64,000 nt of DNA from Thuidium tamariscinum. Taxonomy: Eukaryota; Streptophyta; Bryopsida; Hypnales; Thuidiaceae. A program made the position numbers and the translations under genes. Positions 11,895 through 54,100 of this stretch are shown here, piece after piece. The notes under the pieces were generated by a model. The model was not told where the DNA came from. It did no database searches and saw nothing but the letters and a program-made list of their open reading frames with translations. The DNA is taken from assembly GCA_947034885.2 (NCBI GenBank), contig OX344755.2:26791052-26855051 (forward strand), given 5' to 3'. Position 1 is the stretch's first letter. Every line of letters begins with the position of its first letter.

Positions 11895-11917
11895 ATCTGT
11901 GAGCGTCCTCGCGAACA

Positions 11918-21409: not shown

Positions 21410-21605
21410 CTTCAGTGATTAGACTCTAGCCTTGAACCTTCGAAAGAGGCTTCTTGTGGATGTTTTGGTTCATTGGAGGGCAAGAGCCTTGCTTTGAGGG
21501 GGTTTAAAAACCCTCTCACAGTAGGTAGCATTGTCATAACTTTTTCCTCATTACTGGATTCTTGGATCGATTTTTTGGGGGTGAAACTCATTGTGGATTC
21601 ACACA

Positions 21606-23069
21606 ATGGTTGTCCCAGGTGGCGGTCAAGGTCGGAACGATACGCGTAGGGCTACAAAAGATTGGGACCCTTGGCTTGTACCGTGCGTTCCAAATGATAA
21701 TTCATCCTATGCTCGGAAATGCGTGTTTTGCGGGTGGAGCAAAGTCTTTGTGTGGAAAAGGGCATTTAGTCACTTTGGATATGGTGGCTCGGCAACAGCA
21801 GACCGTTGTCCAAAAATCCCTAGAAGTGCACGTGAAAAGTTTATGACTTGCGGCGGAAACGTTCCAAAAGCCATGAGCTTTGAAGAATTGTTTGAAACAC
21901 CATTTGTGGGCAATGAGGCCATTGGTGCGGCACAATCCCTCATTCAAGAGGTAGAGGGTGGTGAGGTGGGTGGTTCTTCAAATCCAACGGGTCCAACCGG
22001 CCCGACAAACCCTACCCCAGATTTAGTGGATTCTACTCCAAGTACGGTTGACAGAACAGGAAGCCGCCCTGTGGTTTCTCGTCAAAGAAGTATGGATGAA
22101 GCATTACAAATAGGCTTGAGACAAAAGTTGGATGCGACGTGGGCTTCATTTTTTTATGAAGCCAATATTGCATTCAACGTCACGCGACACCCTGCATTTA
22201 TAAATGCAGTGAAGGAAACTGCAGCAGCTAGAATTTTATATCGTCCACCAGCATTCAACGCGTTGCGTACCAGGATGATTGATGTGAAGAAAGAAGTTGT
22301 CCAAAAAATGGTCAATGACCGGACAAAGAACTCTATTGCGCAATATGGAGCAACTATTTGTTCAGATGGGTGGTCAGATACCAATAGGCGACCGTTGATG
22401 AACGTGATGCTCGTTTGTCCAGCAGGGGATGTGTTTTTGGGATCAGAGGACAGTACGGGAGCGAAGAAGGACATTGCCTAGACGACAGCTTTAATGTCGA
22501 AGTACATAGACAAGGCCGGTCCTTCAAATATTGTGCAATTGTGTACAGACAATGCTTCAGTAATGATTGGAACTATGTCATGTTTGTTACTGAAATATCC
22601 CCACATGTACAAACAAGGGTGTGCGGCTCACATCTTGGATTTGCTTTTGGAAGATTGGGGAAAGTCTCAAATGATGAAGGATTTGGTAAGCGAGTGTAGG
22701 ACAATGGTGAAGCATATCAGGAAATACCATTTCACTATGGCTTTGTTTCGGAAACATTCTCCAAACAAAATGCTTAGGCTGCCTACTTTGACACGGTTTG
22801 CCACCAATTTCCTTATGGTAGACCGCCTGCTCGTTTGCAAACAAGCTTTGCAAACCGTGGTTGCAGGTGACACTTACATGACCTTCGAGTTCAGTTTGCA
22901 GAATCGGACTAATGGAGGTACCATTAGGCGCAAAACAATGGATGTTCCGCTAAACATTCATTCTGAAAGGTTTTGGTCAAAATGCAAGAATTTTATGTTT
23001 ATCATAGAGCCAGTACTCGTTGCTCTACGACACTTTGATGGCAAAAAACCAGCAATGCCAAAAGCTTGA
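21606..23069 (+). pseudogene. hAT-family (BED/DUF659-type) transposase, truncated and broken
   Basis: One frame of 487 codons from ATG 21606 with an in-frame TAG at 22479-22481 (codon 292). The N-terminal CVFCGW...H motif resembles a BED finger. The DUF659-like region begins near LDATWASFFYEANIAF and includes CSDGWSDTNRRPL and CTDNAS, where hAT catalytic aspartates fall. It lines up with the copy at 55739 through much of its length, the TAG falling opposite a Tyr. The frame ends at 23069 before the C-terminal dimerisation region and a GC island follows within 90 bp, so the 3' part is lost. Its probable promoter island is at 7790-8229, cut off by the retrotransposon. Confidence 0.8.
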
Positions 23070-27734: not shown

Positions 27735-27975
27735 CAAGAGTGAGGGCGGACGGCCCCGACCGCCCCTCTTATACCCTAGCGGACGCGCGGACGACCCGAG
27801 GAGGCGCTGTCCGCCGTCCGATCGATCGGACGGCGCGCACGCGTCCGCGCGATCGGGCGGACGGATATGCGTCCGCCTCGTCAGACGGCATCAGTCCGTC
27901 CGCCCGTCCGCGGCCGTCCGATGAATCTGACGGACGACCATGATCGGGTGGGTGCCGTCCGCCTAATCCAACGGT
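27735..27975. repeat. GC-rich CGGACGG island, 5' of kinase-like gene
   Basis: CpG-rich block of CGGACGG, GTCCGCC and GCGCGGACG words, ending about 150 bp upstream of the kinase-like ATG (minus strand). On the minus strand GGTATAAGAGGGG near 27765-27778 could serve as a TATA box. Confidence 0.75.
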
Positions 27976-27989
27976 CTACTTTGTAGAAG

Positions 27990-30170
27990 GCCTTCATTTG
28001 AAATTTCACGTGAAGAGGGGCCAAACAAATATGGAGAGGTTGAAATTTCTTAGAACATTTCTGTTCTTTGACAAATTTCCATTTGGAAATTGAAATTGCC
28101 TATTTTTTGTGAGATTCCAAAAAATAGGATACATTGCGATATTTGGAGTTTTTTGCTGAGTGCCCTATTCATTTCAAATTTCACGTGAAAAGGGGCCAAA
28201 AAAAATATGGAGAGGTTGGAATGTCATAGAACATTTGTGTTCTATGACTAATTTCCATTCCACATTTGAAATTCTCTAGTTTTGATTTTATTTAAAAAAA
28301 TACACCACGTAGCCATTTCTGGGTCTACTTTGTAAATGGCCTATTCATTTCAAATTTCACGTGAAAAGGGGCCAAAAAAAATATGGAGAGGTTGGAATGT
28401 CATAGAACATTTGTGTTCTATGAGTAATTTCCATTTGGAAACTTAAATTGCCTATTTTGGTGAGATTCCAAAAAATAGGCTACATTGCAATATTTGGAGT
28501 TTTTTGCTAAGTGCCCTATTCATTTCAAATTTCACGTGAAAAGGGGCCAAAAAAAATATGGAGAGGTTGGAATGTCATAGAACATTTGTGTTCTATGACT
28601 AATTTCCATTCCACATTTGAAATTCTCTAGTTTTGATTATATTTAAAAAAATACGCCACGTAGCCATTTCTGGGTCTACTTTGTAAATGGCCTATTCATT
28701 TCAAATTTCACGTGAAAAGGGGCCAAAAAAAATATGGAGAGGTTGGAATGTCATAGAACATTTGTGTTTTATGACTAATTTCCATTCCACATTTGAAATT
28801 CTCTAGTTTTGATTTTATTTAAAAAAATACACCACGTAGCCATTTCTGGGTCTACTTTGTAAATGGCCTATTCATTTCAAATTTCACGTGAAAAGGGGCC
28901 AAAAAAAATATGGAGAGGTTGGAATGTCATAGAACATTTGTGTTTTATGACTAATTTCCATTCCACATTTGAAATTCTCTAGTTTTGATTTTATTTAAAA
29001 ATACACCACGTAGCCATTTCTGGGTCTACTTTGTAAATGGCCTATTCATTTCAAATTTCACGTGAAAAGGGGCCAAAAAAAATATGGAGAGGTTGGAATG
29101 TCATAGAACATTTGTGTTTTATGACTAATTTCCATTCCACATTTGAAATTCTCTAGTTTTGATTTTATTTAAAAAAATACACCACGTAGCCATTTCTGGG
29201 TCTACTTTGTAAATGGCCTATTCATTTCAAATTTCACGTGAAAAGGGGCCAAAAAAAATATGGAGAGGTTGGAATGTCATAGAACATTTGTGTTCTATGA
29301 GTAATTTCCATTTGGAAACTTAAATTGCCTATTTTGGTGAGATTCCAAAAAATAGGCTACATTGCAATATTTGGAGTTTTTTGCTAAGTGCCCTATTCAT
29401 TTCAAATTTCACGTGAAAAGGGGCCAAAAAAAATATGGAGAGGTTGGAATGTCATAGAACATTTGTGTTCTATGACTAATTTCCATTCCACATTTGAAAT
29501 TCTCTAGTTTTGATTATATTTAAAAAAATACGCCACGTAGCCATTTCTAGGTCTACTTTGTAAATGGCCTATTCATTTCAAATTTCACGTGAAAAGGGGC
29601 CAAAAAAAATATGGAGAGGTTGGAATGTCATAGGACATTTGTGTTCTATGAGTAATTTCCATTCCACATTTGAAATTCTCTAGTTTTGATTTTATTTAAA
29701 AAAATACGCCACGTAGCCAGTTCTGGGTCTACTTTGTAAATGGCCTATTCATTTCAAATTTCACGTGAAAAGGGGCCAAAAAAAATATGGAGAGGTTGGA
29801 ATGTCATAGGACATTTGTGTTCTATGACTAATTTCCATTCCACATTTGAAATTCTCTAGTTTTGATTATATTTAAAAAAATACACCACGTAGCCATTTCT
29901 GGGTCTACTTTGTAAATGGCCTATTCATTTCAAATTTCACGTGAAAAGGGGCCAAAAAAAATATGGAGAGGTTGGAATGTCATAGGACATTTGTGTTCTA
30001 TGAGTAATTTCCATTCCACATTTGAAATTCTCTAGTTTTGATTTATTTATAAAAATACGCCACGTAGCCATTTCTGGGTCTACTTTGTAAATGGCCTATT
30101 CATTTCAAATTTCACGTGAAAAGGGGCCAAAAAAAATATGGAGAGGTTGGAATGTCATAGAACCATTGGA
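27990..30170. repeat. 176-bp satellite-like array, ~12.5 units, two unit types
   Basis: The landmark ATTTCAAATTTCACGTG recurs at 28171, 28347, 28522, 28698, 28874, 29048, 29224, 29399, 29575, 29751, 29927 and 30102 (spacings 174-176), after a diverged copy near 27994. Type A units contain CCACGTAGCCATTTCTGGG; type B units contain GAGATTCCAAAAAATAGG. The order is B-A-B-A-A-A-A-B-A-A-A-A-partial, so B recurs every five units (877-878 bp). Each unit holds the 12-bp palindrome TTTCACGTGAAA (11/12 in the first), and most hold the short inverted repeat AGAACATTTGTGTTCT, which some units carry with one base change. No coding potential. Confidence 0.92.
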
Positions 30171-30316
30171 GAAATTGGAATGCCATTGAATTTTGACTAC
30201 GGATGAGAAATTAGGGCCTCTCTTATTTTATTCTTATAAAAATTCTAAATGTACATGCTAGAGATCACATAGGGAAAAAAAACACGTGAAAGTTTCATTC
30301 CACCTCTTTGGACTAC
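30171..30316. other. Flank with paralogous empty site
   Basis: TTTTGACTACGGATGAGAAATTAGGGCCTCTC at 30191-30222 matches the sequence obtained by joining the two flanks of the 30328-44766 element. It therefore shows what the target looked like without the insertion. No gene. Confidence 0.7.
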
Positions 30317-30327
30317 GGATGAGGAAT
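30317..30327. repeat. 11-bp target duplication, left copy
   Basis: GGATGAGGAAT, repeated exactly at 44767-44777. A length of 8-11 bp is usual for Mutator-like insertions. Confidence 0.8.
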
Positions 30328-30529
30328 CAACGATGCTAGCGTTCGAGCGGGGAGCGGGGAGCCTATGAGCTGCGAGCGGGAAAGTTGTGAGCGGTGAGCA
30401 TAAAGTACCTTTTTTTTAGAAATTTGAGCTAGAATTTTTTTTCAATCATTTTTTTCTTCAAAAATCAACAAAAATTTATTATTTATAGTAAATTTTGCTA
30501 CCTATGACCGTGTCTCCTATAACCGTGGA
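30328..30529 (+). repeat. Left terminal inverted repeat (imperfect)
   Basis: A GAGC-rich segment 30335-30400, then an AT spacer, then CTATGACCGTG and ATAACCGTGG. Its counterpart on the opposite strand is 44656-44766, which has a shorter spacer. Similarity is patchy (about 80% over the best blocks by eye). Confidence 0.6.
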
Positions 30530-30856
30530 TTTTCATGAAGTCTCATATTTTTTGACCATTAATAATATCGTCCATACAAAAAAAATGGGGATTTAGGGTT
30601 TAGGGGTCAATAAAAAACAGGCAAAACACTTCAAATACAAAAGGCTCATGTGCCTTGTTCTAGGGCTTAGGACTTTTTTGAGTGGATAAAATAGAAATGG
30701 GTTTAGGGTTGAAAACTAGATAGAAAAAAAAGTTAGAATAATATATTTGAATTGTAAGGAAAGTCAATGTTCGTAATTGAACTCCATCACTTCATAATTT
30801 CATTTGTAGTACATGTAAAGAAAACAACATGAATGTACTACACTCTAAGAAACTAA

Positions 30857-33800
30857 TCATATCTCCTCTGAAACTATGATGATCCCTGCCTGAACTAGCA
30901 GTACCTTCAACTCATTGAAGCTATAACTAGGTGCATGAATGAATTTGTCATCATGAATGTCCATTTTGCAAAAGTACCTATACAAATAGTATAAGTGCTT
31001 GCAGTTCACATATTGTGCTCTCCCTCCAACAGCAGATACAACCATATTGACAAAGTCTGGGCATGTACATGTAGGAAACATACCCATTGTCACTCGGTAC
31101 ACATTTTTTAGTGATCCCATCCCAGTCTCAAGAGTCACAATTGCACCAAGTCCAGGAAGAGGGAGAAGGGTGACTCCTAGAATCTATCCTCTAATGTTCC
31201 CAGCACTCTCCCATTTGTTTCGTTGTTCTATAGTAGGGGCATTAGCAACTCTCCTAATAGTTCGATTATTCCTCACTGTAGGATATGCATCAGGATTTTG
31301 GGGAGGTGGATGGTCAAAAAGAAAAGGCTCAAAGATCTTAGCCATTGTGAAAAGTTGACGTGGCGACAATGTAGGCTGTTCTTGCAACTGGAATCCCGCA
31401 TGTTGCAACAACAACGTCTCTTCTCTATTCAAATTGGTTCCACTCAAGACTGGCCAAATCTCAGGCACTTGAGGCCAATCAATGACCCACTTGCGCTTGG
31501 TGCCTTTCACGCATCGTTCAATGTCATCCCAGCAAAACCAGAAGTCTACCACCACTTCACGTTTACTTCCATATTCTTCCTTTCTTCCGCGATAGGTAGG
31601 AGCGGGAGTTCCCTTTTTGCCTTTAGAAATCTTGGAGGTACACTTAATATTCGATGTCCGTTGCTGAGCAAAACATCTAGCATTTGATTTGTGGCATATT
31701 CTTGCAATGTGCCATTTTGTTGTATCACAATCACTTTCAAATGCTACCGTGACATATTGAGAAGCGCAAACCTGGCTCTGGTCTCCATTGCCCTCCAATG
31801 AATCCGCTAATATCTTAGTTGACCTTGTACGAACACGTGGTTGAGAGAAATTGAGTTTGTCCGGTCTATGTGAATCTCCAGAATCTCCAATAGGTATGTC
31901 AAGCCTCCTCTTAGTGCTTCCAAATATTTCTTCTCCCTCCAAATGTGGTATTCGAGTTCCCACGCCATGTGCTTCCGGCAATGTGTTCAGTGCTTCTGCA
32001 ATTTTTTGGGGGCAGCTGCTTCGTCTTACTGCCCTCAATTTCAATTCCCCTTTTGATGGCCCTGACCCGGATGCATGACCTCTAAGGTAAGCCCGATAGT
32101 TTGTCATTTGCATCCAAGCACGAATACTGTCATCACAAGTTGCATCAAACAAATTGTTTCCTCTTTTTCCCGACATTTGTAGCCACTTGTTGTGAACCGT
32201 TTCAGACAAATTACAAAAAGGCATGTCCGTCATCTCTTCCAAAGTTAAACCCTACAAATCCAACAATAGCAAAGTATAAATTATAAGAATTGAATGGAAT
32301 CTCCTATTTTCAATTATATTTCAAACTATTTTGTATAATCGCAAACATTGAACTATAGGGTTTTAGGTCATAGTTTATTCCATGCCCCCCCCCATCCTCT
32401 AATTGCTATATTCAAGGAATTTTGAAATTGGAGTACAAATAAAGAATAAATACACCTTCAACTAGGCATTGCAACTCTTGCATTCATATAAGTTATAGAG
32501 TAACGGAGCTACTAAGAGTCAGTTACTCAAAGAGTTGTCGAATCCGACAGTTTAGGGTAATTAGCCCCCTAGTACTAAATTGACTTCAAGAAAATTCCGT
32601 CGGATCCGACGGTTCTCTAACATTAGCCTCATAGGACTAAATTATCCCAAAATTCTGGGTGGAATTTCTAATGATTTAGAGAACTCTAACATTATGAGTC
32701 AATAAATTGAATTATTAGTAATACTATATTCATTTCAATTTTAAATTCAACTTTTCCATTTCATCTTTTCTAAGAAAACATAATAACTTAAGAAGTACAA
32801 AGAAATACATTTTCTTACCATTGTCATGAAGCCTCCCCATTGTAAATACCGGAAATGCCAAAATGCAAGCCAATGGTCCAAATGATGAAGTGAGTCTTCG
32901 TTTGCAGCTCCAGATGATAACCACCATGACCTGATTGCAAGGTAGCGTGTCTCAGCTTCATCCATTGTCTTGGATTCCTTGTACTGCTTACATAGCGCTA
33001 CGTGTTGCTGTTGGAAGGTTTGTTTGATGTGCTTCTGGGTGTGTTTATGTAGAGAATTACTCCAATGCAGTAAACATGTCCTCTCACGATTTTTCATAAC
33101 CTCATCCGCTGAACCACTACCATAGACAATGCGTACAGCATTCCAATTGGCCATAGCGCTATCTGCCATAAATCCCTTGAAGTTTGGTTTCTCCACTCCG
33201 TGTAGTGACATTATAGCATTCAAGGACCTCCAAAATTGCACTTGTATTTCTGTATCTTCAGATTGCATATCACACACTGCAATAGTCATCACCTTTTTGT
33301 ACTGACAATCGTACACGTGGCAGGCCATGGTGGTCCAATCCTTCACGCGCTTCACGTGGTCGAACATCATCCACGCATTCTGCAAATCCCCTCCACTTTG
33401 CATGCGCCTTACCAAGTCCACTCCGCTTCCAGGCCCTTCTGTGAGCATTTTGAAGATGTACACCTTCTCCTTTCCTTGGCCTGGAAATACACTGTCGTGT
33501 ATAAACTCAAACTTTGAATCCCTCTTCATAGTCATAATGTTGTCGATGACACCTCCTTGGTTGTTAGAGCGGAAAGAAGAAATGATATTCCGTATACTAG
33601 GACTACTGAGAAATTGGAAACGATCCATAACCTCTTCCATTTCCTCCCCCTTCAAGATTTTCTTCTCTCCTTCTCCATGGTGAAATAGGTGGTTTGTTAG
33701 GAAATCTTTGCTAGCGGACAAGGCTATGGCGGAGTTGGTAGCTGTAGGTGTTTTCGCTACTTGCTCTGCAATAAGTTCGGTAATTTCTTTTGCCGAGTCT

Positions 33801-34978
33801 CTATACATGCCTTTAGCTACTGGGTGACTGTGATATCCTAAGTGAATAGCAGCCCTTGTCAAATTTGGGTTATCACTATAGCAGAAGTAAATTCTAGCGT
33901 CACAGATTTTCAAGCATGTAGGTACTACTTTGCACACTTTGCAAACTAGTTTGCAATCTTTTAAGGGAATACCTCCTATTGCAAAAGGAAGCACTGTAGA
34001 ACCACTCCACTCTGTCTCATTCTTCTTAGAAGCCCTTGTCAAATACTCACAACTAGAGTTTTCACAAACAAGATGACCAGCGCAGGAAGACTTACGGAAC
34101 TTCAGATTGTCGGAGTTGTGGATGTTTGTTGTGACCAACTTGCACCAAGGGTGCCCATCATAACGCTTGTCCATTCCCTCCATGTTCCTGGCTGCGGACA
34201 AAGATGAAGAGGACTTGCATGGAGGTAATTCAAAGAAGGCATCTCCGTTGTAAGAAGGGGGCAGGAACTGTACTTGGTGATGCTTCATGGTGTTCAAATC
34301 TATTGCAGCGAGTTCATTCCTGGAACGATGGAGACCAGAAAGTTTCTTCAAGCAATCCACTATACTTGCTTTGTTTGCAGGGCTAAGGTCCACGCTAGGA
34401 TCTGAGAATTTAGACTGTGTGGAACTATGAGGTGGGGTGTTCCATATAGAAGCTACGTGTTCGGGCTCATTAGAAACCGTATGGACTGTGGAAGATTTCA
34501 TGTGAAGGGGTAAGGTTGGGGACTCACCTTCTGATTCACTAGACAATTCTACAATAGTGTCTAGTTTTTCAACCTTCACAACAGTAGGAATTTCTCTTCT
34601 ACGAAGAAGTGGGAAGCTATTTTCGAGAGGACTAGGAGTACCACTCTCAGATATGAAAGGTGTGTTCACTGTTGAATTAGCAGACTGATGACTTCCTATT
34701 TTAGGAGACAAACTAACCATAGATAATGGGAGACCGTAGGCTCTGAAATTTCCTGCACCGAGATACCAACAATGGGCTTCATTTGAGATAGACCTGACCA
34801 TGGGAATGGACTCTTGCAATTCACCGGACTCACAGTATCGCTCTTCTTCAACGTAGATAGATGACTCCACAAATTTAAATCGAACATGAAGCAAATGAGA
34901 AAATACAATAGCATGTCCTGATTCATCTAATGGAAATACTATAGGAACTTTGTGGCCATCTACACGAACGCTAGCCAT
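30857..34978 (-). pseudogene. SWIM zinc-finger, MULE-like transposase gene with one in-frame stop
   Basis: Exon 1 is 34978-32819 (ATG 34978, 720 codons), the intron 32818-32252 (GTAAGA...TAG), and exon 2 32251-30857. The join is phase 0. Exon 2 is open for 464 codons except for a TAG at 31186-31184 (codon ~1076). The N-terminal half has Ser-rich stretches, then a Cys/His-rich segment (GHLVCENSSCEYL, CKVCKVVPTCLKIC). A MULE-type core follows, with FDHVKRVKDW and FKGFMADSAMANWNAVRIVYG holding candidate catalytic Asp residues. The C-terminus has a SWIM finger (TCTCPDF...VNCKHLYYL, CxC...CxH), downstream of the stop. SWIM plus a MULE core is typical of Mutator-like transposases and FAR1 relatives. 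The stop removes the SWIM finger, so this copy may be inactive unless an unseen intron skips it. Confidence 0.65.
32252..32818 (-). other. Intron of the MULE-like gene with palindrome core
   Basis: 567-bp intron. It contains CCGTCGGATCCGACGG at 32597-32612 and a related TGTCGAATCCGACA at 32536-32549, the same core found in the hairpins at 37671-38840 on the other side of the element. Confidence 0.6.
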
Positions 34979-35828
34979 GTCTTTGAGAATAAGGAATACA
35001 CAACCGTGAATAGAAGAAATGGCTCTAAAAACATTAGGATTTTGAGTCGGATTTCTAATATAGTCTCTTCATTTAATTAATCATTACAAGGTACATGTAT
35101 CAATCATTAAGGGTGTAGTCTATTCTAGCATTTTAAAGAAATAACGGCACTTTGTATTTTTATTATTATTTATTTTTAAAACGTTCCATGGATATGAACA
35201 TTCCACTTAGCCGTTTTGTCACGCACCAGAGTTCAAGTGATCGTTTATACAAAGTATTTTAATGTAAGGTGGACAAAAGTGTTTATTACGTTCATAAGTA
35301 TTAGGGTGTCTCTAGCGCCGTCAAATCTTTATATACAAATGTACAACCGGATATTCAAATAAGTATCTAGTACTTTCAAATATGTGCCGTGGATTTCCTG
35401 CCAGTATTTATCAAATTTGAACAGTAGGGTACAACAAAAGCTCCTCCAAACGGCTTGCATTTATGTCACTGATCCTGCAAATCTCGGCGGCTTCTGACAA
35501 AGGCGGCGCCACACCACATCAAGCAATGCAATGTCCTCGTTCAAGAATCTGAAAATGGCAGTGCCGTCACGTTACATGACATGCATCAATGACTTCAAAG
35601 AAGGTTGTGAAGAACTATATATAGGCCTTCATAGAAGATGGACTCCCTTCTGTGCTTTCTGTAGACTATATTTCTATTTTGAAGTGCGATTAGTTTTGTT
35701 ATTACTTGCATCAGCCCATGCTTGTAGACGATTTGAACGTAGTCATTGTTACTCCGCAATAGAGAAGGAGTAAGAGAAAACATAGTTCTTTTTATTTCTC
35801 TTCTTGGAGAGTCTTGAAGAGAGCTAGA
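34979..35828. promoter_or_regulatory. Divergent promoter region inside the transposon
   Basis: 850 bp between the start codons of the minus-strand transposase gene and the plus-strand 280-aa gene. CTATATATAGG at 35615-35625 is a TATA candidate for the rightward gene, about 200 bp before its ATG. I see no certain TATA for the leftward gene. Confidence 0.45.
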
Positions 35829-38800
35829 ATGTCACGTGCCAAGAAAACTGTGTCAAGAACAAGTGAAGGAGAGAATGTTGAGTTCAGGCGATCTCTTAGA
35901 TTTGATGGTGGAGTAGGAGCCCATTCAGGAGGTGGTGGAAGCGAGAATCTCGAGCATTTATCGGAGCAACCCGTGGATTTTCATCAAGATGAGGTGGTAT
36001 CAAGAGCACAAGAATCACAAAATGTAAGTCTACTTTGATTCACCACCTCACTGCACTGATACCTCTCTATTACCTCTCATTTGAAATAGTTGAATGCACA
36101 GGACAAAGTGGTTTAGAAGAAGTATCTGAAAGCTTATAAAGAGTTATAGCATTTACAAATACTAAAGACAACTCTTACATGGAATAAAAGAGAGAGTGGG
36201 CCTTTCTTGAGGCATGACATGGCTATTAAACTTCCGTAGACAAATACAGTGCTACTTTAGTAGAGATCTCAGTAGGTTCCTGAGAAATTGAAGGACATGT
36301 GGTGGAGCCAGCGTGAGCAGAATGTGACAACACACATGGACCGAGTTCCCCAGTGCACCTTCTTTGTGACAGCCAGTAGTGTGATCAGTTGTAGTGCACT
36401 GACTAGTCCCCCACCCCAACGTGGAGCTGACAACTGCGTCCAGGATGAGTTCAGGTCCACGTACCGAGCATCAGTGGTGTCAGTGTCTGCGTCACAGGTT
36501 GACCACCTTCGTTTAGAAAGATCACCTGCTGTCAAAAGTCTGAGCAGATCCCTTCCCGGATTTCAAGACTGCGTTTTGTCTTCATCTGCCGCTCATAGTG
36601 GAATTTCACCTGATTCCACGTGATTACCTGCTTGGCGCGGTGGCGGGCATCAATGGCCAGAAATGACTCTGCGAATTTGGGAAACCGCCTCCAGATAACG
36701 GAAACCTCTCTCGATGCAGGATTCTAGCTCCGTAGCGCTCATCTAGTCAATCTCCTCTTCCATTTTGATGGATGCGTAGCCTCCTCGCTTGTGCAACTTG
36801 TGCAGGTCCCCATGACGAGGAGCACTCGATCTCGCGCCAAGGAGGTCCGCAGCGCGACCACGGTGGGAGATGCAGTCAGTGTCGACACGGTCATGGCTAA
36901 TCAGGTTCGCATTACAACACCGGTGGTTGGCAAAGCAAGGAGCACTTGTTTTGAGTGTTTGAGCATCTGTTCCCTTTTCTTGGAAACCGAGAATCTGCAT
37001 TGTTGGATCAGCCTCCTTCCCTCACTGATTGCAGATCAGATTGATAAAGCATTTTTGTTATTCGTTACGGTAGTCGGATGATCCATCCACGCCAACGTTG
37101 AGAAAAGTCGAATCGGGCGCGCTCGTCAAACCTGTGGGCGTCCTGCGTGCTCTGGAGTGGCGCACCAAGGCGCGCGGCGCGCTTGCGAGTGGTCTCACCC
37201 GGGCGCGCTTGCAGTGTGCTTGTGAGTGGCTCACCCGGGCGCGCGCGTCGCGACCCGGGGTGAGCTCGCAAAGAAAAATCCCTGCCGGGTGGCCATCGCG
37301 CTTGGCGCGCGCTAGCATGCCGAGTCGTCCCAGCCATGCGGCCGGCTCTCTCCCGGCTCTTGTGTACGTCCCCCGTGTGGAACGTGGGCATCCTGGTGTC
37401 TAGATTCGGAAAGACGACCCAAAGTCTGAATCTGAGAAATAGGGTGCTGTAGACTTGAATCTGGGAAACAGGGTGCTGTGGCGACCAGGTGGTCTTGAAA
37501 TCCCACATCTGTAGGTTCAATAGTGTAAAATTACTTGCATGAGCTCGCAAATAGGCCTGCCTTCAACAACGTCAGTAGGAACCTCTGTTTTTTTGTACTC
37601 TTCACCTCGAACAAGAGATTCGGTTCATGACTTCGAAGAATTCACATAAAATTAGAACTGAATACCCTCAGAGCATGAGATTTTGGGGTAGCAGGAGCTA
37701 CCCCAAGAATCACCGTCGGATCCGACGGTGATTCCTGGGGTAGCTCCTGCTACCCCAAAATCTCATGCTCCGAGAGCTTTGAGCACGCGGACTTTGAATC
37801 CATTCTTCTGCTCTTGAATCAAAAACATTGAAACTTTTGTCTTCCTGTCTAGTTGTGGTTTTCGAGCTGAAGAAGGTTGACTCCGATATTTCAAATTCGG
37901 AAATATTTTCCTTCAAATTCCTTTCAGGTTGAGTCCTCCTTCGGATCTGTAGTCATGGAGAACTAAAGTAACCTCGGTTTGTCACCTTAAATCCGTGAAA
38001 ATTCATAGCCTATGTTTTTTAAGGGTAGCCGAAGCTACCCCAGAATACACCGTCGCTACCCTTAAAAAACATAGGCTGAGATTTACTTTCTTCGCGGCCG
38101 ACTCTCACAACTTCTTTTTTCTCCTCAGGTTCCCAGACATGCCCCTCGAGCGTCGGTGGAAACAGCCACAGTCTCCGCTCAGGTAATGTTCATTTCTTTC
38201 CATTACACCTTCTTTTCAATTGAAAATTACGGATTGATACAACTCCAGATTGATTTTGTCCATGATGGTAGTCTCTTTAACGTAAGTTTATTAAATCAAA
38301 ATCTCGGCCTGTTGTTTTTTGGGGTAGCCGAAGCCACCCCAGAAAGCACCGTCGGATCCGACGGTGATTTCTTGGGTGGCTTCGGCTACCCCAAAAAACA
38401 ACAGGCCGAGAAATTTTAGTTAACCCTCTCCTGGAACTCAATGAATCATGTCTCCTGTTTCAGGTTCCAAGAAACGTAACTGCTGCAGTTGTGGAAGATC
38501 ATCATGTCTCCGATCATGTAAGTTCTCTTCGTTGTGATTTGAAAGTCTTTTAAATTTATACTTGAAGATAATAGAATTTCGGTTTTAGGGTAATTGTCAT
38601 CTTAATCTATTGATTGTGTAACCTACATTGTGTTCAATATTCTTTACTTGGTTTGAATTACTAGGATATAAGTTGGTAATGCTTGGAGATAGCTCTAATA
38701 TAGTGAGGTTCAGTATTGGAGAAATTTCTTGTATCTTCCAATATCACCTTAGCAGTCTATTTTGGGGGGTAGTACAAGGTGGATGATAAACGATCGTCGG

Positions 38801-39538
38801 ATCCGACGGTGGTATTTTGAATACCTGCTACTACCCCTAAAACCCATTTGTTATGACTCTTTTATATTCTCTCTTTGATAAGTATGAAATCCATAAATGA
38901 TTTTCATGTGTTTGGTCACTGATAAGATTAAGCATTTTGGAGAAATATGTAGAGTTCACATTTGCTCTCTTGGTCTTGGTTCATTGAGTTAATTCGTTGA
39001 GGGACAAAGTGAATTTATGTAATGTTCGTTAGTATTTTACTCTCACCATTTTAAACCTTTATAATTGATGCTAAATAAAACAATTTTATTCTTCCAGAGT
39101 GGTCGACATACTTCTAAGCGCCCAAAGCTTGCATCATTTGGAAAACAAGCCCCTATGGTTCAAAACTCTCAAGGTCTGGAGATTGGAGGCCCATCTCAGC
39201 CCAAGACGTGGCCTCAGCCTGGCATGCCCATTCCAAGTGACTCCAGCGATGACGAGGGGAACTTGGTGAGTTTTGCAGACATTATGGATGCTGCAGAGCG
39301 CGCAGCTAATGATTTTGAGGGAGATAGGCTAAGTTGGAATAGGGGTCCTGGGCCATGGTTCTCATCTGAGAGCTCGGAGACGGAGTATTCCTCCGCTATC
39401 GAGCTCTCAAATGCTAGCTCTTGTCCTCCGTTTGTGGAGTTGCATGAGGATACTTGTACTTGTAGCTTTTATTCAGATGAAGTCATCATCCTCAGCTCGG
39501 ATTCTGATGAGGATGATGACATAGAGATTATAGTATAG
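35829..39538 (+). CDS. 280-aa protein with C-terminal SUMO-interaction-like motif
   Basis: Proposed exons: 35829-36023, 36806-36904, 38129-38182, 38464-38517 and 39098-39538. All junctions are phase 0 with GT/AG ends, summing to 280 codons plus TAG. The donor of exon 2 (CAG|GTTCGC) is the weakest point. The N-terminus is basic (MSRAKKTVSR). Exons 2-4 each begin Val-Pro; exons 3 and 4 are both 54 nt and begin VPR, suggesting exon duplication. The last exon has Ser/Glu-rich acidic tracts and ends EVIILSSDSDEDDDIEIIV: a hydrophobic core next to acidic/Ser residues fits a SUMO-interaction motif, with a second reversed one after it. No catalytic domain. The gene lies 216 bp upstream of the ParB-methyltransferase gene on the same strand. 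An adaptor or regulator is my inference. Confidence 0.55.
37671..37770. repeat. 100-bp near-perfect hairpin H1 (intron)
   Basis: Zero-loop inverted repeat with 49 of 50 positions paired, centred on CACCGTCGGATCCGACGGTG (37711-37730). Each arm contains a smaller hairpin, GGGGTAGC-AGGA-GCTACCCC. The outer arm (GAGCATGAGATTTT) is not shared with H2 or H3. Confidence 0.95.
38007..38077. repeat. Hairpin H2 (intron), internally deleted
   Basis: A perfect 23-bp inverted repeat (38007-38029 with 38055-38077) around a 25-nt loop. The loop keeps one half of the core (ending CACCGTC), as if the second half had been lost. Its outer arm (AGCCTATGTTTTTTAA) is unique to this copy. Confidence 0.93.
38302..38411. 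repeat. 110-bp near-perfect hairpin H3 (intron)
   Basis: Zero-loop inverted repeat, 53 of 55 positions paired, with the same 20-bp palindromic core (38347-38366) and nested GGGGTAGC-CGAA-GCCACCCC. The outer arm TCTCGGCCTGTTGTTTTTT is unique to this copy. It lies between the two VPR exons. Confidence 0.95.
38764..38839. repeat. Degenerate hairpin H4 (intron)
   Basis: GGGGTAGTA...CGTCGGATCCGACG...TACTACCCC. The core (38795-38808) and ends are kept but the arms have diverged, so this is an older copy of the same family. Confidence 0.7.
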
Positions 39539-39754
39539 TATCTGATTTACTATAGAGGAATATTACATATGCGTTTGATACCAAACATTTTGAAAGAGGC
39601 ATATTTTTTGTTAGAGATGCTCTGGACTTCTTTTGTGCTATCATACCAATTTTCCATAATTAAAGCATATTCATTGCAATCTCAAGTGACATCAATTCCT
39701 CTAAACCTTCACTCTTTTTTTTTGGAATATGAAAGGTTGTAATAAGGATTGCCT

Positions 39755-42700
39755 ATGACGCAGATGGATATGTCACCTATCAAGGGGACTCAAGAGGAGA
39801 GAATTGTAGAGACGCCAGGCACAGATGACAGCATACAACCTGATATTGTAGGCAAACGATACGAAAGAGTGGAAAATGAAGAGATTGTGGTGACAGATTT
39901 GGTTGAAGATGAGGATCTGAAAGGCCTCATGGAGGACCAACTTCGGCGGATTCAGAAAGGAGATTCAGTAGACATCCTCTCCAGTCTGCGCACCAAGCCT
40001 GAAGATCTATTTCGTCTACGCATTCCTCTTTGCAGACTAGTGGCCATGCCCATGGTAAGGCCTACCTTGTCTTCTGATATTAAGCAATTGGAGCATGAGT
40101 TTGTTGGTGGGTACCGTGATGGTGCGGCGGTGTTCTATGTCTCTATCACAAATGAAGAGGGACAAAGCTTAGAGTTTACAGAGGCTGAGATGAGTAAGTG
40201 GAACGCCATTTGGAAAGAGAAGAATGAAGAGTTTATCCGACATGTGGAGTCCAAACCTGAACTCAAGTTCTTTAGGAACTTGAAGTTTTTCGTATGCAAT
40301 GGCAATCATCGCCGCATTGCTTGGATGAACGTCATAGAGAGATGTTTTTCTGGGATTCCAAAGAAGCATTGTGTTGTGGACTGCATTCTTCTAGACACGA
40401 AGGGTCGGAACGAGCTTGTTATGCAAGTGATGCATGACATCAACAAGTGAGTTTTTTTCTTTTTCTTTTTTCACTTTTTAAGTCTTGAAGTTTACAATTT
40501 TTGTATATTAATTTCACTCATGTTAATGTGGTATTCATTGAATAACTTGCAGGTCGACTGAAGACTCACACGTGAAGACGAACTTGGTACATACTTTGTA
40601 CCAAGTGCAGAAGTATGGACTGCTGCCACTTGAGAAATTTGCTGATTTGTTGAGGCCTGCAGAGAAGAAAAAGTGTTTGGAACACCGAGTGTCCAAGAAA
40701 TGGTATAGCATACCTGTGGAAGTTTTTACTTCCTTCATTTTCAAGGTAAGATGAATCTCTAAACCCATAATTTAAGAGGTTTGTACTTGTATAATTTTCA
40801 AATACTTTTGGATGACTAACTATTAAAATTGGGTGATTATGCAGCAAGAGATTTCTCAAGCTGCTGATTTAGCCGTGAGAAAGTATACGGATGCCACACC
40901 GGAGGAAAACCGGAAAGCACTAGAAGCTGCTCATGCCATGAGAGTTGGTACACATGAGAAAACCAAGAATATGATGGTGAAAATGGGGAAGTTGCTCGCG
41001 GTTGCTCATCCATTGAATGGTCCTGGTTTCCTCGAGGAGGTGAGCTACAATTCTTTATGGATTTTTGGAATTGTATATTTTTTTGGGTGAGATATGGATT
41101 TGAAGATGTCCTATTGGTGCAGGTAGAAAAGCATTGGAGCACTAACGAAGTTCCCGAAATGACATTAGAGAAGTTGCAATTGCTGGCAACATGTAGCATG
41201 ACATCCGCACACAAGATTAAAATCTTGAAGTGGTGGAATTCCTCTCAGCCTACTCGTGAATCAAGGAAACTTCCGCCAAAGCCAGTCTCCGAACTTCTTC
41301 TTCCCCAATTCCTTGCCAAATGCGTGTGGTACGCTGGGGTAAGTAAACAATTTTGTATATGCACATATTTGTTACTTGTAGTGGTTGCTATTGGTTTTTG
41401 CATTCACAGTTTGGAATTGGAATTAGAACCGTGAATATATTTTTTTTTTTAATTGACATTGGCGTGTTCTCAGATAGAAGATGCAGCTGTTGAGTACTTC
41501 GATTCAGTGGTAAAAGAAGACAACATCACCATTGATTACAAGACGCCAGAGAAACCAAAGTATTTGGCACACTACATTGAGGATTGGAGGCAAAAAATAT
41601 GGGACTACGGCTTCATGACTTATTTCAGGGGGCACAATTATTTTAAGAAGGGAGACTCTTTCATGGCTTTTGAGGGTTCCGCCGCTACGGTGCGTAGAGT
41701 TCTCTTCCGGTAAGTTCCCTAAACCTCCCCATTTATAAATTTTAGGCTTCATAAAATTATATGTTGCTCAAGATTTTGAAATAATACTTCCAAACTTTAA
41801 TTTGTAAATAAGTCACATTTAGAAAGTATAAGCAATTGTTGACTAGTTATAGGCACCGTGCGCACAGAAGCATGTCTTAGGGTTTAGGGTGACCCTAAAG
41901 CAAATAAGGTCTTACCCCTATCAACTTCAAATTTAGCTTCTAGTTCTCTGTGGATTATTTATCAACTACAATGAAGTCTTTGAGGACTACTTTCTATCCT
42001 TGAGGTTATTTTTTCTTTTATTATTATCATGGGTTCGGATGTAGCCATCACATTCTAAACTATAATTGTAAAACAGACATTTGATTTCCATCATCAATAT
42101 TTTCTCTAATGAACTTCTATAACTGTATATTAGGTATTTCAAATTTGAGTTGGAAGGTAAAAAGGCCATTGCAACACTCGACCTTCCCCCGTTCTTGTCT
42201 GGGTATCTTGATCGCAACTCCACAGCTTGTATGTTCACCCAGCATCAGATTCGTACTTTCACTACAGCGCACCTCAATGGTGGAGGATGGTACTTGGATT
42301 GTACCCTCGACTTTACTCCAGTTTCAGAGGTTGAGCTGAGGAGATCTTTGGATGGAAAAGGAGTGCAGGACTTGGAGATTGACGAGTTTATTGGCCTTGA
42401 TCAAAATGCAAAGAAAAAGGCCATAATGAAGAGGGATGCAACCGACAGGAGGAAGGTAGCCCGAGCCCAAGTACACTTGGAGAACAAGGAAAAGAGAGAC
42501 GCCGAGAGAGCAATCAAGAAGGCAGAGAAGGATAAAGCAGAGAAGGAGAAGGAAGAGAAGGGCAAAGGCAAGGGGAAGAAGAAGGAGGAACAGGGAGGTC
42601 AGATGGTACCATCTTCCACCGTGGATCAGAGTTCGCAAATGGAGACTGGAGCGAAGAGGAAGGTGACTCTCTCTCAACTCACCGAAGAAGTCATCAGTCA

Positions 42701-44331
42701 TGTCACGCAAGCAATGGTTTTGACAGATGATGATGGAGTGAAGACCGAGGATTTAATCCTAAATGTCTCCATTGAAGATTTGGCAAATGACATGGATGAA
42801 ATCAAGCCAACCTCCTACAACATCGTTTTGAGCTTCTTGGAGAAGGTACCCATCTATATTGTAGTATGGAATTTTCATTTATCTCTTTGAAGTGACATGA
42901 ATGTTGTCAAACTTAAAAAACTTATTTGTAATGTACTTCCATTTGCAGATGAAATCAGGGAAGCCTCGCATGTTTGAAGGTGTATTGAATGCGCGGGCAA
43001 GGGTAGACGTCATATTTATTGATTGTCCCGAGAACTTGCCCGTTCCAGGTCTGTCTTCATCTCCAACAGATGTGCCAAAATGGAATGCAGATCCTGAAGA
43101 TGAGGCTTTGCAGGCAGCGTGCAGGTTTGCTACAGAGCATCTGCAAGATGATGGATGCATCATAGTTTTTCACCCCTACAGTATGAAGTCAAGAGAGGAC
43201 ATTGCGGGAGTGTGTGAAGCTTATGATTTGGTGCAGAAAAAGGATTGGATGGGGATGAACCGCATGCACCTTTCTTCATCATCAGACACCACCAAGAAGG
43301 TAAATTTCAGTCATAGTTTTATGCCTTTTAATTTTATTTCACAAAAAATACTTCAATTCTTTCAATGCATTCTCATATATATTTGGCGTGGATGTTTCAG
43401 ACACAGAAGTTTGGAGTTACCCTCCTTGTGAAGGATTTGGGCTCAAAAGGGGATTCAAAATTCTTCTTCAAGCGGACCCACACGATGGTAAAGGCTGGGG
43501 TTAACGTTGCAGAGGATGACATGTTGATGAATTACACGCATCCAGAAAACATGGCTATGAATGGGGACTACCCTTGGCGGGGGGGACGTGAGAAAGATCC
43601 AAGGTTCTTTACTATCCTCCTCGAAGCTACTAGCGTCGAAGGAGATCTTGTACTGGATTGCACTGCATCCACAGGTTTGTATTCAATTCACAAATCTGAC
43701 ACTTCAATTGTTTAGTACTACTTCTATTATAACACTAATGCATTTTCATTTTATTACTTGTAGGTGCTTGCATTACAGCTTGCCGTAGCACGGGACGCCA
43801 CATTGTGGCTTTAGAAGGGAACGAAGACATTTACAGTGCCCTCTTGAAGCCAATGAAGAAGAAACCAGAATCTGTGGTAGCAACACCAACGCCGACGCCA
43901 CTGATTGAGGTTTCACAGGATCTGGAGGATATGCCCGTGATCCCTCGCAAATTTGTTCGCAAAGGGAAATCTAGTAAGTAAGTTGGCAATGTTTGAGTTC
44001 TTTATTGGAATAATAATCATTTCACTATTTGAGTTATAAAATACTTACAATATATCTTGCTTTTTTCAGGAGTTGTGGATTGATGTCAAGTACTGCCATC
44101 TTCAGCAAAAGTGGTCTTCTTATCAGTCCAGAGAAGCCTTTTGAGCTTCCAGTTTATGCTGAGCAATTGGCAAGTGCCTTTGCGGATTTTGGTTGTTCTA
44201 AACCAAAACGCCGCAAAGACACTTATGCTCTAAACGTTTTACAGTTTGTAGATGTGTCTGCATCCGAGGGTAGGGAGTCCTCAGAGTCATCTACAGGTTC
44301 AGATTCTGCAACAGAGTCTACAACGACTTAG
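39755..44331 (+). CDS. ParB-like domain fused to permuted DNA methyltransferase, 1,114 aa
   Basis: Ten exons: 39755-40446, 40553-40745, 40845-41039, 41123-41338, 41474-41709, 42134-42845, 42949-43299, 43401-43674, 43764-43977, 44070-44331. All have GT/AG ends and total 1,115 codons including stop with no internal stop. Residues ~85-195 resemble the ParB/sulfiredoxin fold: IPLCRLVAMPMVRP, then a G-x-HR-x2-A box (GNHRRIAW, 183-190). A Lys/Glu-rich linker follows (~605-665). Residues ~749-985 resemble a beta-class N6-adenine/N4-cytosine methyltransferase: a motif IV position FIDCPENLP (773-776, DCPE where DPPY is usual), then motif I VLDCTASTG (D951, G957) and GRHIVALEGNEDIY (E974, Y980). Cofactor residues look kept; the catalytic motif is altered, so activity is uncertain. 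ParB-methyltransferase fusions are familiar from phages and bacteria. The tail is Ser/Thr-rich. Confidence 0.65.
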
Positions 44332-44655
44332 ATTCAGAAGATTGATAAATCTCTTGGGTCAAACTATTGTGTATTGATTTTTATTATGATTGGATTTGTG
44401 TGTTTTATGGCTACTCCTTTGATGTATTTCATTTTCTTGCATAAAAATGTTTATTGCTTTATTTATATTTATTTAAATAATATTTAACCTTTGCCTTGTA
44501 GAAAATTATATAAAGCATAATCAATTAGCTATCTTACAGCACAAACCCTAAACCCTATGAAACCCCAAACCGTAAACTCTTATAATGAATTCAAATTGTT
44601 CTAAAACAAATTCTTAAACAATGAACAAATAAGTGACAGACAATGTATGTTTTGG

Positions 44656-44766
44656 CAACCACGGTCATGGGACCATCCACGGTCATAGACTCTTCATCAA
44701 TTTTTGAAATTTTTTTTTTCCCGCTCCCAGGCTCCCAAGCTCCCAGGCTCGCCTGCTAGCAACCCT
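44656..44766 (-). repeat. Right terminal inverted repeat (imperfect)
   Basis: Contains CTCCCAGGCTCCCAAGC repeats, GCTAGCA near the end (44756-44762) and CCACGGTCATGG / CCACGGTCATAG blocks that complement the left end. Confidence 0.6.
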
Positions 44767-44777
44767 GGATGAGGAAT
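44767..44777. repeat. 11-bp target duplication, right copy
   Basis: GGATGAGGAAT, identical to 30317-30327; the flank then continues TAGGGCCTCTCTTATTTTATTCT as in the paralogous empty site at 30211-30233. Confidence 0.8.
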
Positions 44778-51195: not shown

Positions 51196-54100
51196 ATGGC
51201 TACAGACAGCGGTGCAGGTACTGATGGGATGAATTCAGGAGGTGACCAGAAAAAGAGAAATAAAGTGAAGGGGACTACACATGGACTACACTATGAAATT
51301 TTGGACGATCCGAACATCATAGCAGAGAGCGGTTGGGAAAATGAGACCGCAGATTATTGGACCTCCAAACTATGTAAGCAGTACGTTAAAATGTACCACA
51401 TCAACAAGTTGTGGCCTCGGGATGCACACGCACGCTAGACTGCAGATTTCAACTGTAAACCACACAGTTGCATTGACCCGCACTTTGTCCATCGAGCGAC
51501 AGAGGTGTAGGGGGCCATGTTTGGCCCTAAACCAATGTCTAAAGGGTACATCAACTACAGCTTGGCGTCCATGGTGTATGCAGAACTGAGATTGAAACGC
51601 AAGGTGGATTGGAGCACGTTCCCAACAACAAAGAAGAATCCTCTACTCCTGCAACAAAATCAAAAGGATATTCCCGATTCGTGGCCGCAGACGGCGCAGA
51701 GGGTACAACCAATCTTACAGAATCCAACAACGCCTACAACGGTGGCCTCAGCAAGCGCATGTGCGAAACCGCAATTGGATTCGAGGGAGACGACATCCAA
51801 CGTTATGAATGTTCCTGCGGTTCATGTGAATGACCAAAACAAATCTCCCAACCGGGAAGACCTCGTCAACAAAAATGGTGGCCCCTCTCCTCCAAAGACG
51901 GACCCCACGGACGAAGAGGTTGCCGGGGCCAATGTCACAATTGGACTTTATGTAGACAGCGGTGTTTTAGATAGTTTGGGATATGCAACTCCAAATCCAC
52001 AGTTGCCAACATCGGAGAGCCCATTGTGTACTCCAATCATTCAAGAGGACCTGTCAAGAACGAATGTGCAAGAACCCAATGCTGCTTCCACCAATGTAAC
52101 AGTGGATACATATGAGTTTATAAAAAAGTATCCACATTTGTCAAGTTTAGACTCGACTAGCTTCAAGAATCTTGTTGCAATGCCACAGATTCCGCATTTG
52201 GAAGGCTTGCTTGACCTTAGTATCAAGTGGAAGACAGTCGAAGAACGTTTGTTTCCATTTGAGCGACGGACTCAGCAGAACGAGCCGGAAAGCAGTACTC
52301 CACCGAAGAAAGTATATCAACCCGCTGACTTTCCACATGCCGCTCTGGCATTGACAAGAACTGCCACGTGGATAGATGAATTGGCTCCAAGGGTTGGTGC
52401 GTTTGCCGATGAATTAGCGTCCCTAGCTCCTACACTATTGAGCGGTGCGACGGCTTTCCTGCACTTCACCGATCAAATGTTACCAATTCTCACGTCCGCG
52501 ATTCATTGTGAAGAAAGTCACGCTCAATTGAGGGAGGAGCTAAAAGAAAGTGAAAGAGAAATTATACGGTTGAAGGTTGCGCTCAACAGTGAACGAGAAG
52601 AACATAAACTCAAGAAAAGGATGCAAAGGATGGAGGAATCATTGAAATGTATTGAGCCAAGTCAAGGGACTCAAGGTAGCGATCAACTCTCTCTTCCAAT
52701 GGACAAGGGCAAAGCTCATGTCGAGCCAGACCAACAAACTTTGCCGATTGGCCGTAAAAGTTGGCTTGACTTGCAAAAAGAATTGGACCAGTCCAATGCC
52801 GAAAAAGCCCTTCTTCAGTCCAAGTTGGATCAAATGATACGAGTGCAGGCCATGGATGAATATTTGCCTAGGAGTGGATCGGGGTCTCGTTGGTTGGGAT
52901 GGGTACAAAAAGTTCAAGACCCACCCTTATTAGCAGCTCGAGAAATGAACAAGCTTCGTACGATTGCATTGAAGGGTAACGATGAATGCAATGCCGTCGA
53001 GAAACATTTGAAGAAGTTCGAGAGCGAGGTGGATCGCCATCCAATTGAGAGTGCTTCAATCACATGTTGGGGAAACACAGATGCTATGATGGAGCGCTTG
53101 AACCACACAAAGAAAACGGAGGGTGGAAATATCAATTGGGCCTTGGAAGTAGAGGAAGGATGGGTCCCTTACCAAACGCTTTCAGCACACATCAACAACA
53201 AGGAGAAGCGTGTTATGCATAATTTTGATGCAGGTCATAAAATGTTGGATGGTATTTGTACAATTTGCCAATACGGTTTTGGACCTGAAGGAGCCATAAC
53301 CTTGGGCCATTGTGGCCACACTTTTCACGTGCGGTGCATCATTCAAGCATCAATGTTTAGCTCGGTTTGTGCCGAATGTCGTTCTCCTTTGAGTCCTAGG
53401 TTTTATGAATTGTTTGGACTCTTGGATGTTATGCCCCCCGGCCAGGAATACAACAGGTGGACCCTTCCATTGGACCAAGGGCCATACGAATTTGTGAATT
53501 ATAAGCATTGGGGAAAACCTCTACAATGGAACCCAACAGAACGAAGGCATGCATTGTACGATGACGTCCGTGGTCCAGTGGATGCTTTCAATTGGATGAC
53601 CCAAACGAACGAGGTGGAAATACGTGCCCGTTCAATTGACGATGATGAGGGTCGTGAATTGTTTTGTCGCAACATGGGGGGGCATTGGAGCGTGCAACGT
53701 AAAAAGTTCTTCCGGTTTCCAGAGAAGCACGTGGAGAAAACGGAAGATGGAGAATGGGTTGCCGTGGAGGATTCAGAAGAATTCAAGGAACAATATGCGT
53801 CATACGACCACGGTTTGATAGGTCGGGCCTTGTTGTTGTCAAAGCTGGAAGAAGCTGTCGAATATCGTGCTTCCGTGGACATAGATACGGAATGGAACAC
53901 AAGCGAACCAATGGTGGAGGTGGTGGAGGCGTTTGACCGGCGGGTTGGGGAAATCATAAAGCAGTGGAGGACACTTCTATTCGAAGGATGTACGACCGAA
54001 AAGTCATTGAATGAATTCTCATTTGAAGTGGCCAACAAAGTGGTAGAGGAGGTCTTACTTCGATTGCAGTCTACTTTGTCAGCCTTGAAGTTGAGGTCTG

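Follow-up and report, generated by a model that had tools for sequence, protein, structure and literature searches.

An exact intronic palindrome concentrated near ParB-methyltransferase-like genes points to candidate self-recognition by a MULE-like transposon of the moss Thuidium tamariscinum

An exact palindrome of 12 to 16 bp is concentrated near the ParB-methyltransferase (ParB-MTase) genes of a multi-copy, MULE-like family of cut-and-paste transposons in Thuidium tamariscinum. One copy of this family lies in the 64,000-nucleotide stretch analyzed here (contig OX344755.2, positions 26,791,052 to 26,855,051), referred to as the window. ParB-MTase genes were already known in algal transposons; the concentration of a 16-bp palindrome near such genes is new. 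Because of this concentration, the element may recognize its own DNA, and reading or marking of that DNA by the element becomes more likely. Our best reading, to which we give a probability of about one half, is that the element carries a candidate self-recognition system resembling VANDAL/VANC or ParB-parS.

The element, a DNA transposon, spans positions 30328-44767 of the window; its ends are imperfect terminal inverted repeats (TIRs), flanked by a 10-bp target-site duplication. Its features are the following.
30318..30327, no strand: target-site duplication, left copy GATGAGGAAT; the G just before is also shared, and an empty-site-like copy lies at 30191-30240
30328..30383, plus strand: left TIR, imperfect; start near-identical across seven fetched copies
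30858..34978, minus strand: transposase gene (exon 1, 34978-32813; exon 2, 32251-30858)
32597..32612, no strand: 16-bp palindrome CCGTCGGATCCGACGG in the transposase intron
35829..39538, plus strand: gene 2, 280 aa, modelled with five exons (35829-36023, 36806-36904, 38129-38182, 38464-38517, 39098-39538)
37667..37774, no strand: 108-bp near-perfect palindrome around a 16-bp site (37713-37728), gene 2 intron 2
38302..38411, no strand: 110-bp near-perfect palindrome around a 16-bp site (38349-38364), gene 2 intron 3
38794..38809, no strand: 16-bp site with one mismatch, gene 2 intron 4
39755..44331, plus strand: ParB-MTase-like gene, exactly 1114 aa, modelled with 10 exons and GT-AG introns
40007..40432, plus strand: ParB/sulfiredoxin-like domain, residues 85-226, from fold and copy comparison
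42949..43977, plus strand: methyltransferase-like domain, exons 7-9, with DCPEN at the motif IV position, GREKDP at the motif X position and DCTASTG as motif I
44717..44767, minus strand: right TIR, imperfect, from the TIR alignment and other copies
44768..44777, no strand: target-site duplication, right copy

The TIRs are about 50 bp long. Their local alignment score was 44, against a maximum of 37 for 5000 random 60-mer pairs from the window, and the same ends were found at other copies, bearing out the TIR-like ends proposed in an initial annotation of this DNA. The duplication reported there as 11 bp is real but comprises 10 bp, or 11 bp only if the shared G is counted; the proposed span of 30328..44766 had the correct start and stopped one base short of the end. 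Over 50 bp, the repeat copy at 30191-30240 differs from the joined flanks at 3 positions, and it serves as an internal empty-site reference. A satellite adjoins the element, outside of it, and its units contain TTTCACGTGAAA, which in bacteria forms the parS core. Scanning the window against Rfam and for tRNAs returned no match.

The window element was compared with seven other copies from its own genome (363 Mb). Six of these aligned over most or all of the element, the seventh being a fragment, and own duplications of 9-10 bp were present in five of the six long copies (the five in which the right end was read). Genome searches with the two ends gave 314 left and 161 right candidates, of which 40 were scored in each case. 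MTase exon 7 was located inward of 35 of the 40 right ends and 20 of the 40 left ends, and ParB-MTase exons were also detected at four of six sampled left ends that had been unmatched. More than 100 MTase exon places in the genome were found among the matches listed. The three genes travel together across copies, as anticipated. Two outcomes that the initial annotation had named as contrary to its proposal, copies with the same termini devoid of these genes and a methyltransferase gene at a conserved host locus devoid of TIRs, were not obtained among the ends examined.

The predicted SWIM transposase gene was found on the minus strand with SWIM landmarks, but it is interrupted in the window copy by one in-frame TAG (31184-31186). 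The transposase contains a CxC..CxH SWIM-type finger and conserved VKxE and SUMO-interaction-like motifs. The landmarks D, D, C..H, E, and SWIM occur in order when read against the pattern of such transposases, which gives a putative D-D-E core. The SWIM profile matched below the Pfam cut-off (E = 0.02), the Pfam MULE domain matched neither the three transposase stretches of the window nor four relatives, and a search of PDB with sequence profiles of the transposase yielded no informative match. Target-site duplications of MULEs are 8-11 bp in length; that of the window element measures 10 bp, those of five further copies 9-10 bp, and TIRs are present as in MULEs. KDZ and Sola1 transposons generate duplications of 8 and 4 bp, respectively, in disagreement with the 9-10 bp observed here. 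The designation of a large MULE-like transposon with its own ParB-MTase-like gene is supported.

As proposed, two multi-exon genes, gene 2 (5 exons) and the ParB-MTase gene (10 exons), are both located on the plus strand, opposite to the transposase gene. Gene 2 encodes a small acidic protein with an acidic tail carrying a SIM-like VIILSSDSDEDDD. The ParB-MTase frame is open in five of the seven long copies. In computational analysis, its ParB part folds like ParB/sulfiredoxin; the family consensus CDGNHRR reads CNGNHRR in the window copy. Searches of Pfam, NCBIfam, and PDB gave no significant profile match for this domain, the PDB sequence profile of the ParB exon gave nothing useful, and one relative matched a PHROG ParB family at E = 0.42.

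The methyltransferase part displays a beta-class-like motif order, motif IV preceding motif I, according to a weak alignment with DpnA (E = 0.44) that includes both pieces, each weak alone, and places DCPE on DPPY and DCTASTG on DPFMGSG. The Pfam N6_N4_Mtase profile scored 21.4 bits against a cut-off of 26.7 (E = 2.7e-4), four PHROG methyltransferase families matched with E below 1e-3, and NCBIfam CcrM matched at E = 0.003. The fusion of a ParB-like domain to a permuted methyltransferase domain holds for the ParB fold and the motif order, but the catalytic motifs are not canonical. The beta-class catalytic motif is (D/N/S)PP(Y/F/W). In the loci examined, other residues take the place of the first proline and the aromatic residue in DPPY, and likewise of the phenylalanine and first glycine in motif I. 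Of 38 loci, 28 read DCPE(N) at the DPPY position, 10 have other variants, and none has the canonical motif; motif I reads DCTASTG in 25 of 36. Since these motifs are common to relatives, decay in the window copy was rejected, and DCPE and DCTASTG are, as judged from the aligned loci, family traits. Their presence in most loci examined makes catalysis doubtful.

The dN/dS of the ParB-MTase gene is low, with values of 0.07-0.27 for the methyltransferase domain in 9 of 10 pairs. Together with step-wise divergence, this makes a captured passenger gene unlikely. In the divergence comparison (r = 0.55 over all 15 pairs), one of five shared sources was discordant (about 33% versus 76% identity) and was excluded as support; a sixth candidate pairing, which came from different sources, was dropped. 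When the full-length 1114-aa protein served as query, none of the 8000 scored matches reached E ≤ 0.1. Interruption of genomic ORFs by introns is the probable reason; queries with single exons did find relatives. None was confirmed in the viral contigs or in the bacterial and archaeal genomes searched, and tblastn against phages gave weak MTase-like matches (lowest E of 0.03 among the best 20 of 88 records).

The low dN/dS, the motif order with its DpnA alignment, and the Pfam, PHROG, and CcrM matches are what would be expected of an active N6-adenine or N4-cytosine methyltransferase steered by ParB to the palindromes, which would methylate their GGATCC/GATC center and thereby protect the element; the GATC at that center also fits. 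The replaced residues of DPPY and motif I, and the lack of a canonical motif at every locus examined, argue against this explanation, which we regard as unlikely. More probably, the methyltransferase-like part binds SAM or has a structural role, its chemistry being altered. Its motifs do not point to an active base methylase, although one is possible, and a methyl mark on element or host DNA is unproven. Of the earlier suggestion that the element writes or reads 6mA or 4mC, writing finds no support in DCPE and DCTASTG, whereas the palindrome, which the initial annotation did not mention, makes reading or marking of its own DNA likelier.

The 16-bp palindrome CCGTCGGATCCGACGG occurs 309 times in the genome and its reversed control 0 times; for the core GTCGGATCCGAC, the counts are 655 and 1. 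Among 50 listed sites of each, 36 for CCGTCGGATCCGACGG and 40 for GTCGGATCCGAC lie at most 20 kb from a listed MTase exon. The palindrome is kept where the flanking sequence stops aligning and is the same in divergent subfamilies of the element. According to the gene models, all four window sites are intronic. This location, and two inverted CCGAC motifs within the core, which we take to be DRE/CRT cores, could designate intronic sites for a host AP2/DREB-type factor acting as a stress switch of the element, the ParB-MTase protein doing something else. We consider this quite unlikely, as 40 of 50 listed double-core sites are near a listed MTase exon and the outer CC/GG, beyond the DRE core, is also kept in 309 of 655 sites. 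Alternatively, the palindromes could be small foldback elements multiplied inside transposons, with no binding site, their exactness resulting from recent spread or arm-to-arm correction. Long hairpins with a common arm sequence do occur in several introns and across subfamilies, and four base pairs changed in step on both arms, as expected from template-switch correction. However, sites of the transposase-side class and an intron 6 site of another subfamily resemble the window in little beyond the 16-bp core, and position classes recur across listed elements, leaving this explanation with a slim chance.

The element encodes its SWIM-type transposase on one strand, and the small acidic and ParB-MTase-like proteins on the other. 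Under candidate self-recognition, the ParB-like protein or a partner would bind the palindromes in its introns, much as VANC proteins bind short motifs of VANDAL elements. Binding would tell element DNA from host DNA and might protect the element from silencing or organize its transposition. A more specific version, held tentatively and with less than even confidence, is that a eukaryotic transposon took over ParB-parS-like self-recognition: the ParB-MTase protein would bind or mark the exactly conserved intronic palindrome (GTCGGATCCGAC) by means of a methyltransferase fold in which DCPE would be a new, conserved catalytic motif, separating the element from host chromatin.

Bacterial parS is 16 bp in length. 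The moss element resembles ParB-parS by its ParB/sulfiredoxin fold and 16-bp palindrome, although the palindrome sequence differs from parS. Other transposons also carry DNA-modification genes, namely TET/JBP genes in fungal transposons (PMC12730594) and cytosine methyltransferases in retrotransposons (PMC5890265), as far as the available text of these sources describes them, but the enzymes and element classes are different. The accessible part of a recent 6mA survey makes no mention of ParB, moss, or land plants (PMC12695648).

The accessible text of a further article describes ParB-MTase genes in transposons of brown, red, and green algae (PMC12477816), and the statement that no plant transposon with this trio had been described must be qualified for this reason. 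The brown algal case is Sola1-1_Ec32 of Ectocarpus, a giant DNA transposon with an accessory gene, opposite to the transposase, for a 1104-aa protein containing ParB-like and N4/N6 DNA-methyltransferase domains; giant EnSpm elements are named as carriers in red algae (PMC12477816). Compared by description, the moss element likewise has a ParB-MTase-type gene opposite to the transposase of a large DNA transposon, but its host element is MULE-like rather than Sola1. The authors propose binding and modification, by such proteins, of the transposon that encodes them; the accessible text names no target site (PMC12477816), whereas the moss element has a candidate palindrome. A single genome now offers the element type, a candidate target site, and more than 100 places among the matches listed that hold an MTase exon, and marking or reading by transposons of their own DNA becomes directly testable.

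Arabidopsis VANDAL is a three-gene DNA transposon (VANA, VANB, and VANC), in which VANC induces loss of silencing marks and short motifs of the non-coding parts serve as its binding sites (PMC10398659). By description, the moss element is likewise a three-gene DNA transposon with short motifs in non-coding parts. The accessible account of VANC mentions no ParB or MTase domain (PMC10398659), and VANC motifs lie in tandem repeats differing between families, in contrast to the palindrome shared by divergent subfamilies here. If true, self-recognition by the moss element would solve in a different way the problem that VANC proteins address.

The element runs from window position 30328 to 44767. 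Its ends form imperfect inverted repeats, whose alignment scores 44, as compared to a maximum of 37 for 5000 random pairs of 60-mers from the window, all of which scored below 44. The initial annotation had described a large MULE-like transposon (30328-44766) that appeared to carry its own ParB-methyltransferase (ParB-MTase) gene and was flanked by an 11-bp duplication. The duplication is present on both sides, but it is 10 bp long (GATGAGGAAT), the eleventh position being obtained only by counting the preceding G. The insertion site adjoins a repeat having its other copy at 30191-30240; this copy, devoid of the element, resembles an empty site and, over 50 bp, shows 3 mismatches to the flanks when these are joined. 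The source genome (363,211,507 bases, 19 contigs, the window being C7:26791052-26855051) was searched with a left-end query of 301 bp, leading to 40 scored matches among 314 candidates. The seven best matches other than the window's own comprised six long copies and one fragment limited to the left part of the element. Two copies matched the element over its full length (about 99.3-99.5%), three matched most of it (about 88-98% by piece), and one harbored a large deletion (main pieces 92-96%). A 9-10 bp duplication of its own flanks each of five of the six long copies; the sixth has its right end outside the compared stretch, at C2:8160038-8160324. On contig C7 near 28.5 Mb (loci L011 and L012), one copy lies nested within another member of the family and is flanked by a 10-bp duplication of its own. 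The element is a real transposon, with ends aligning as inverted repeats, a flanking duplication, and same-end copies elsewhere. Its genes are the following.

30858-34978, minus strand: transposase gene
35829-39538, plus strand: gene 2
39755-44331, plus strand: ParB-MTase gene (methyltransferase-like domain in exons 7-9, 42949-43977)

These three genes travel together. Exon 7 of the ParB-MTase gene, used as a marker, was detected at no fewer than 105 places (105 taken from 150 scored among 1428 candidates). Among these listed places, 20 of the 40 left ends had exon 7 inward of them, with the nearest place 12.6-21.2 kb away, versus a mean of 0.31 expected for random placement; the controls gave 1/40 (outward) and 0/40 (other strand). 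Because of the nested copies, one pair of adjacent left ends is matched to an identical pair of exon 7 places. At the right, exon 7 was inward of 35 of the 40 ends (68 of the 105 places used), at a distance of 1494-1528 bp in 34 cases and 5361 bp in one. Six of the 20 unmatched left ends were sampled over 1.5 kb each: ParB-MTase exons were found at four, one of them as a short piece, and were absent from the 1.5 kb examined at two. Relatives in other assemblies (E ≤ 0.1) numbered 135 for a transposase exon and 380 for a ParB exon. Comparison of 120 listed relatives of each exon identified five same-size contigs (≥10 kb) common to both, versus 0.009 expected. The two exons diverged in step in four of the five contig pairs (for example, identities of 91.7 and 89.9%, or of 82.3 and 80.9%), and one pair was discordant.

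The ParB-MTase gene consists of 10 exons separated by GT-AG introns and encodes 1114 amino acids. Its frame was open in five of the seven sequences compared (the window's copy plus the six long ones), as was that of gene 2 (280 amino acids). The transposase frame, read over two exons, was stop-free in one of the seven, with one stop in the window, the worst copies being poorly alignable. Pairwise comparison of the five copies in which the ParB-MTase frame is open gave 10 pairs, which are non-independent owing to shared history. The dN/dS of the gene was low, ranging from 0.20 to 0.47 for its full length, from 0.07 to 0.27 for the MTase domain in nine pairs (0.55 in the tenth), and from 0.11 to 0.32 for the ParB part in seven pairs. 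The three remaining pairs, of close copies, had 0 synonymous and 1-3 non-synonymous changes in the ParB part. Gene 2 gave 0.37-0.69 for the same 10 pairs.

The methyltransferase-like domain matched Pfam N6_N4_Mtase below the family cut-off (E = 2.7e-4) and four PHROG methyltransferase families (E from 2.6e-4 to 8.4e-4). Alignment with DpnA (second row, E = 0.44) consisted of two weak pieces, placing DCPE on DPPY and DCTASTG on DPFMGSG. At motif IV, the 38 loci including the window harbored DCPEN (28), DCLEN (6), or DCSEN, DSPEN, DCPKN, and DYPKN (one each), and none the canonical DPPY. Motif I was DCTASTG in 25 of the 36 loci read and a near form in the remainder, residues at exon edges being uncertain in these readings. 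Exact DCPEN is still seen in loci whose exons are 66-70% identical, and motif IV variants occur in the four most diverged loci (51-58% identity). These unusual motifs thus belong to the family. In motif II, the charged residue (GRHIVALEGNED) appears to be kept. Binding of SAM by this domain is plausible; base methylation is doubtful.

The 16-mer palindrome CCGTCGGATCCGACGG occurs four times in the window (three exact, one with a mismatch) versus 0.01 expected, always inside the element and in introns according to the gene models. Genome-wide, 309 exact copies were found (reversed control, 0), together with 655 exact copies of the 12-mer GTCGGATCCGAC (reversed control, 1). The first 50 positions of each were examined, and the palindrome was concentrated near these genes. 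Of the listed 16-mers, 36 had a listed MTase exon at no more than 20 kb (on contig C1, 35 of 42, versus 1.1% expected), four others were separated by about 6-13 kb from a right end in the list, and 10 had neither nearby. Forty of the listed 12-mers were near a listed MTase exon and fell into position classes: -10.4 to -12.2 kb, corresponding in the window to the transposase intron; -4.1 to -6.5 kb, corresponding there to gene 2 introns; -0.26 kb; and +1.6 kb. Of the 10 others, nine formed two clusters of four and five sites. In a subfamily whose MTase exon is 67% identical, an exact 16-mer was present in intron 6, which lacks it in the window, and another in the -12 kb class, in which just 31 bp were alignable. 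In two gene 2 introns of the window, the 16-mer is at the centre of longer structures; at the threshold applied, the window contains no other palindromes of such length.

37667-37774: near-perfect palindrome with central 16-mer
38302-38411: near-perfect palindrome with central 16-mer (108-110 bp for the two)

A further long palindrome is present in other copies at a point near 38055, where about 31 bp are missing from the window. Comparison of the hairpin arms (five copies for one hairpin, six for another) revealed 4 of 106 pairs changed in step on both arms and 17 of 585 cells unpaired; this pattern could be explained by selection or by template-switch correction. We propose that the ParB part, or a partner, would bind this candidate site.

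The transposase family also displays a potential SUMO-related feature.

32750-35068, minus strand: SUMO acceptor-like VKxE, then an acidic SIM-like stretch, conserved in the transposase family

Its columns are near-invariant in 54 sequences, and one strict pattern detected the combination in 35 of 120 transposase-family proteins. Gene 2 harbors a SIM-like stretch near its C-terminal end in the six copies checked. A SUMO link is possible.

About 12 tandem units of 176 bp (27973-30163) adjoin the element, outside it, and hold TTTCACGTGAAA, the core of bacterial parS (12 exact copies and one with a mismatch). Other features of the window are as follows.

8261-21404: LTR retrotransposon encoding gag, RT, and integrase domains, with end repeats of 3.6 kb
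21585-23066 and 55721-57187: DUF659 open reading frames, one with a weak BED finger
51511-54333: open frame of 941 amino acids with a RING-type zinc finger

The end repeats of the retrotransposon are 99.9% identical, indicating that its insertion is recent. The DUF659 frames probably represent transposase genes of hAT-like type, or their remnants.

The literature searched, which covered few subscription papers, yielded neither the MULE-like carrier nor the DCPE/DCTASTG signature nor the palindrome. The idea of a transposon-carried ParB-MTase binding its own element is already in print, in a passage on algal transposon ParB-MTase proteins (PMC12477816). For the proposed self-binding, the closest working model is VANC of the VANDAL elements, described in PMC10398659 as binding short motifs in non-coding parts of these elements and inducing the loss of silencing marks.
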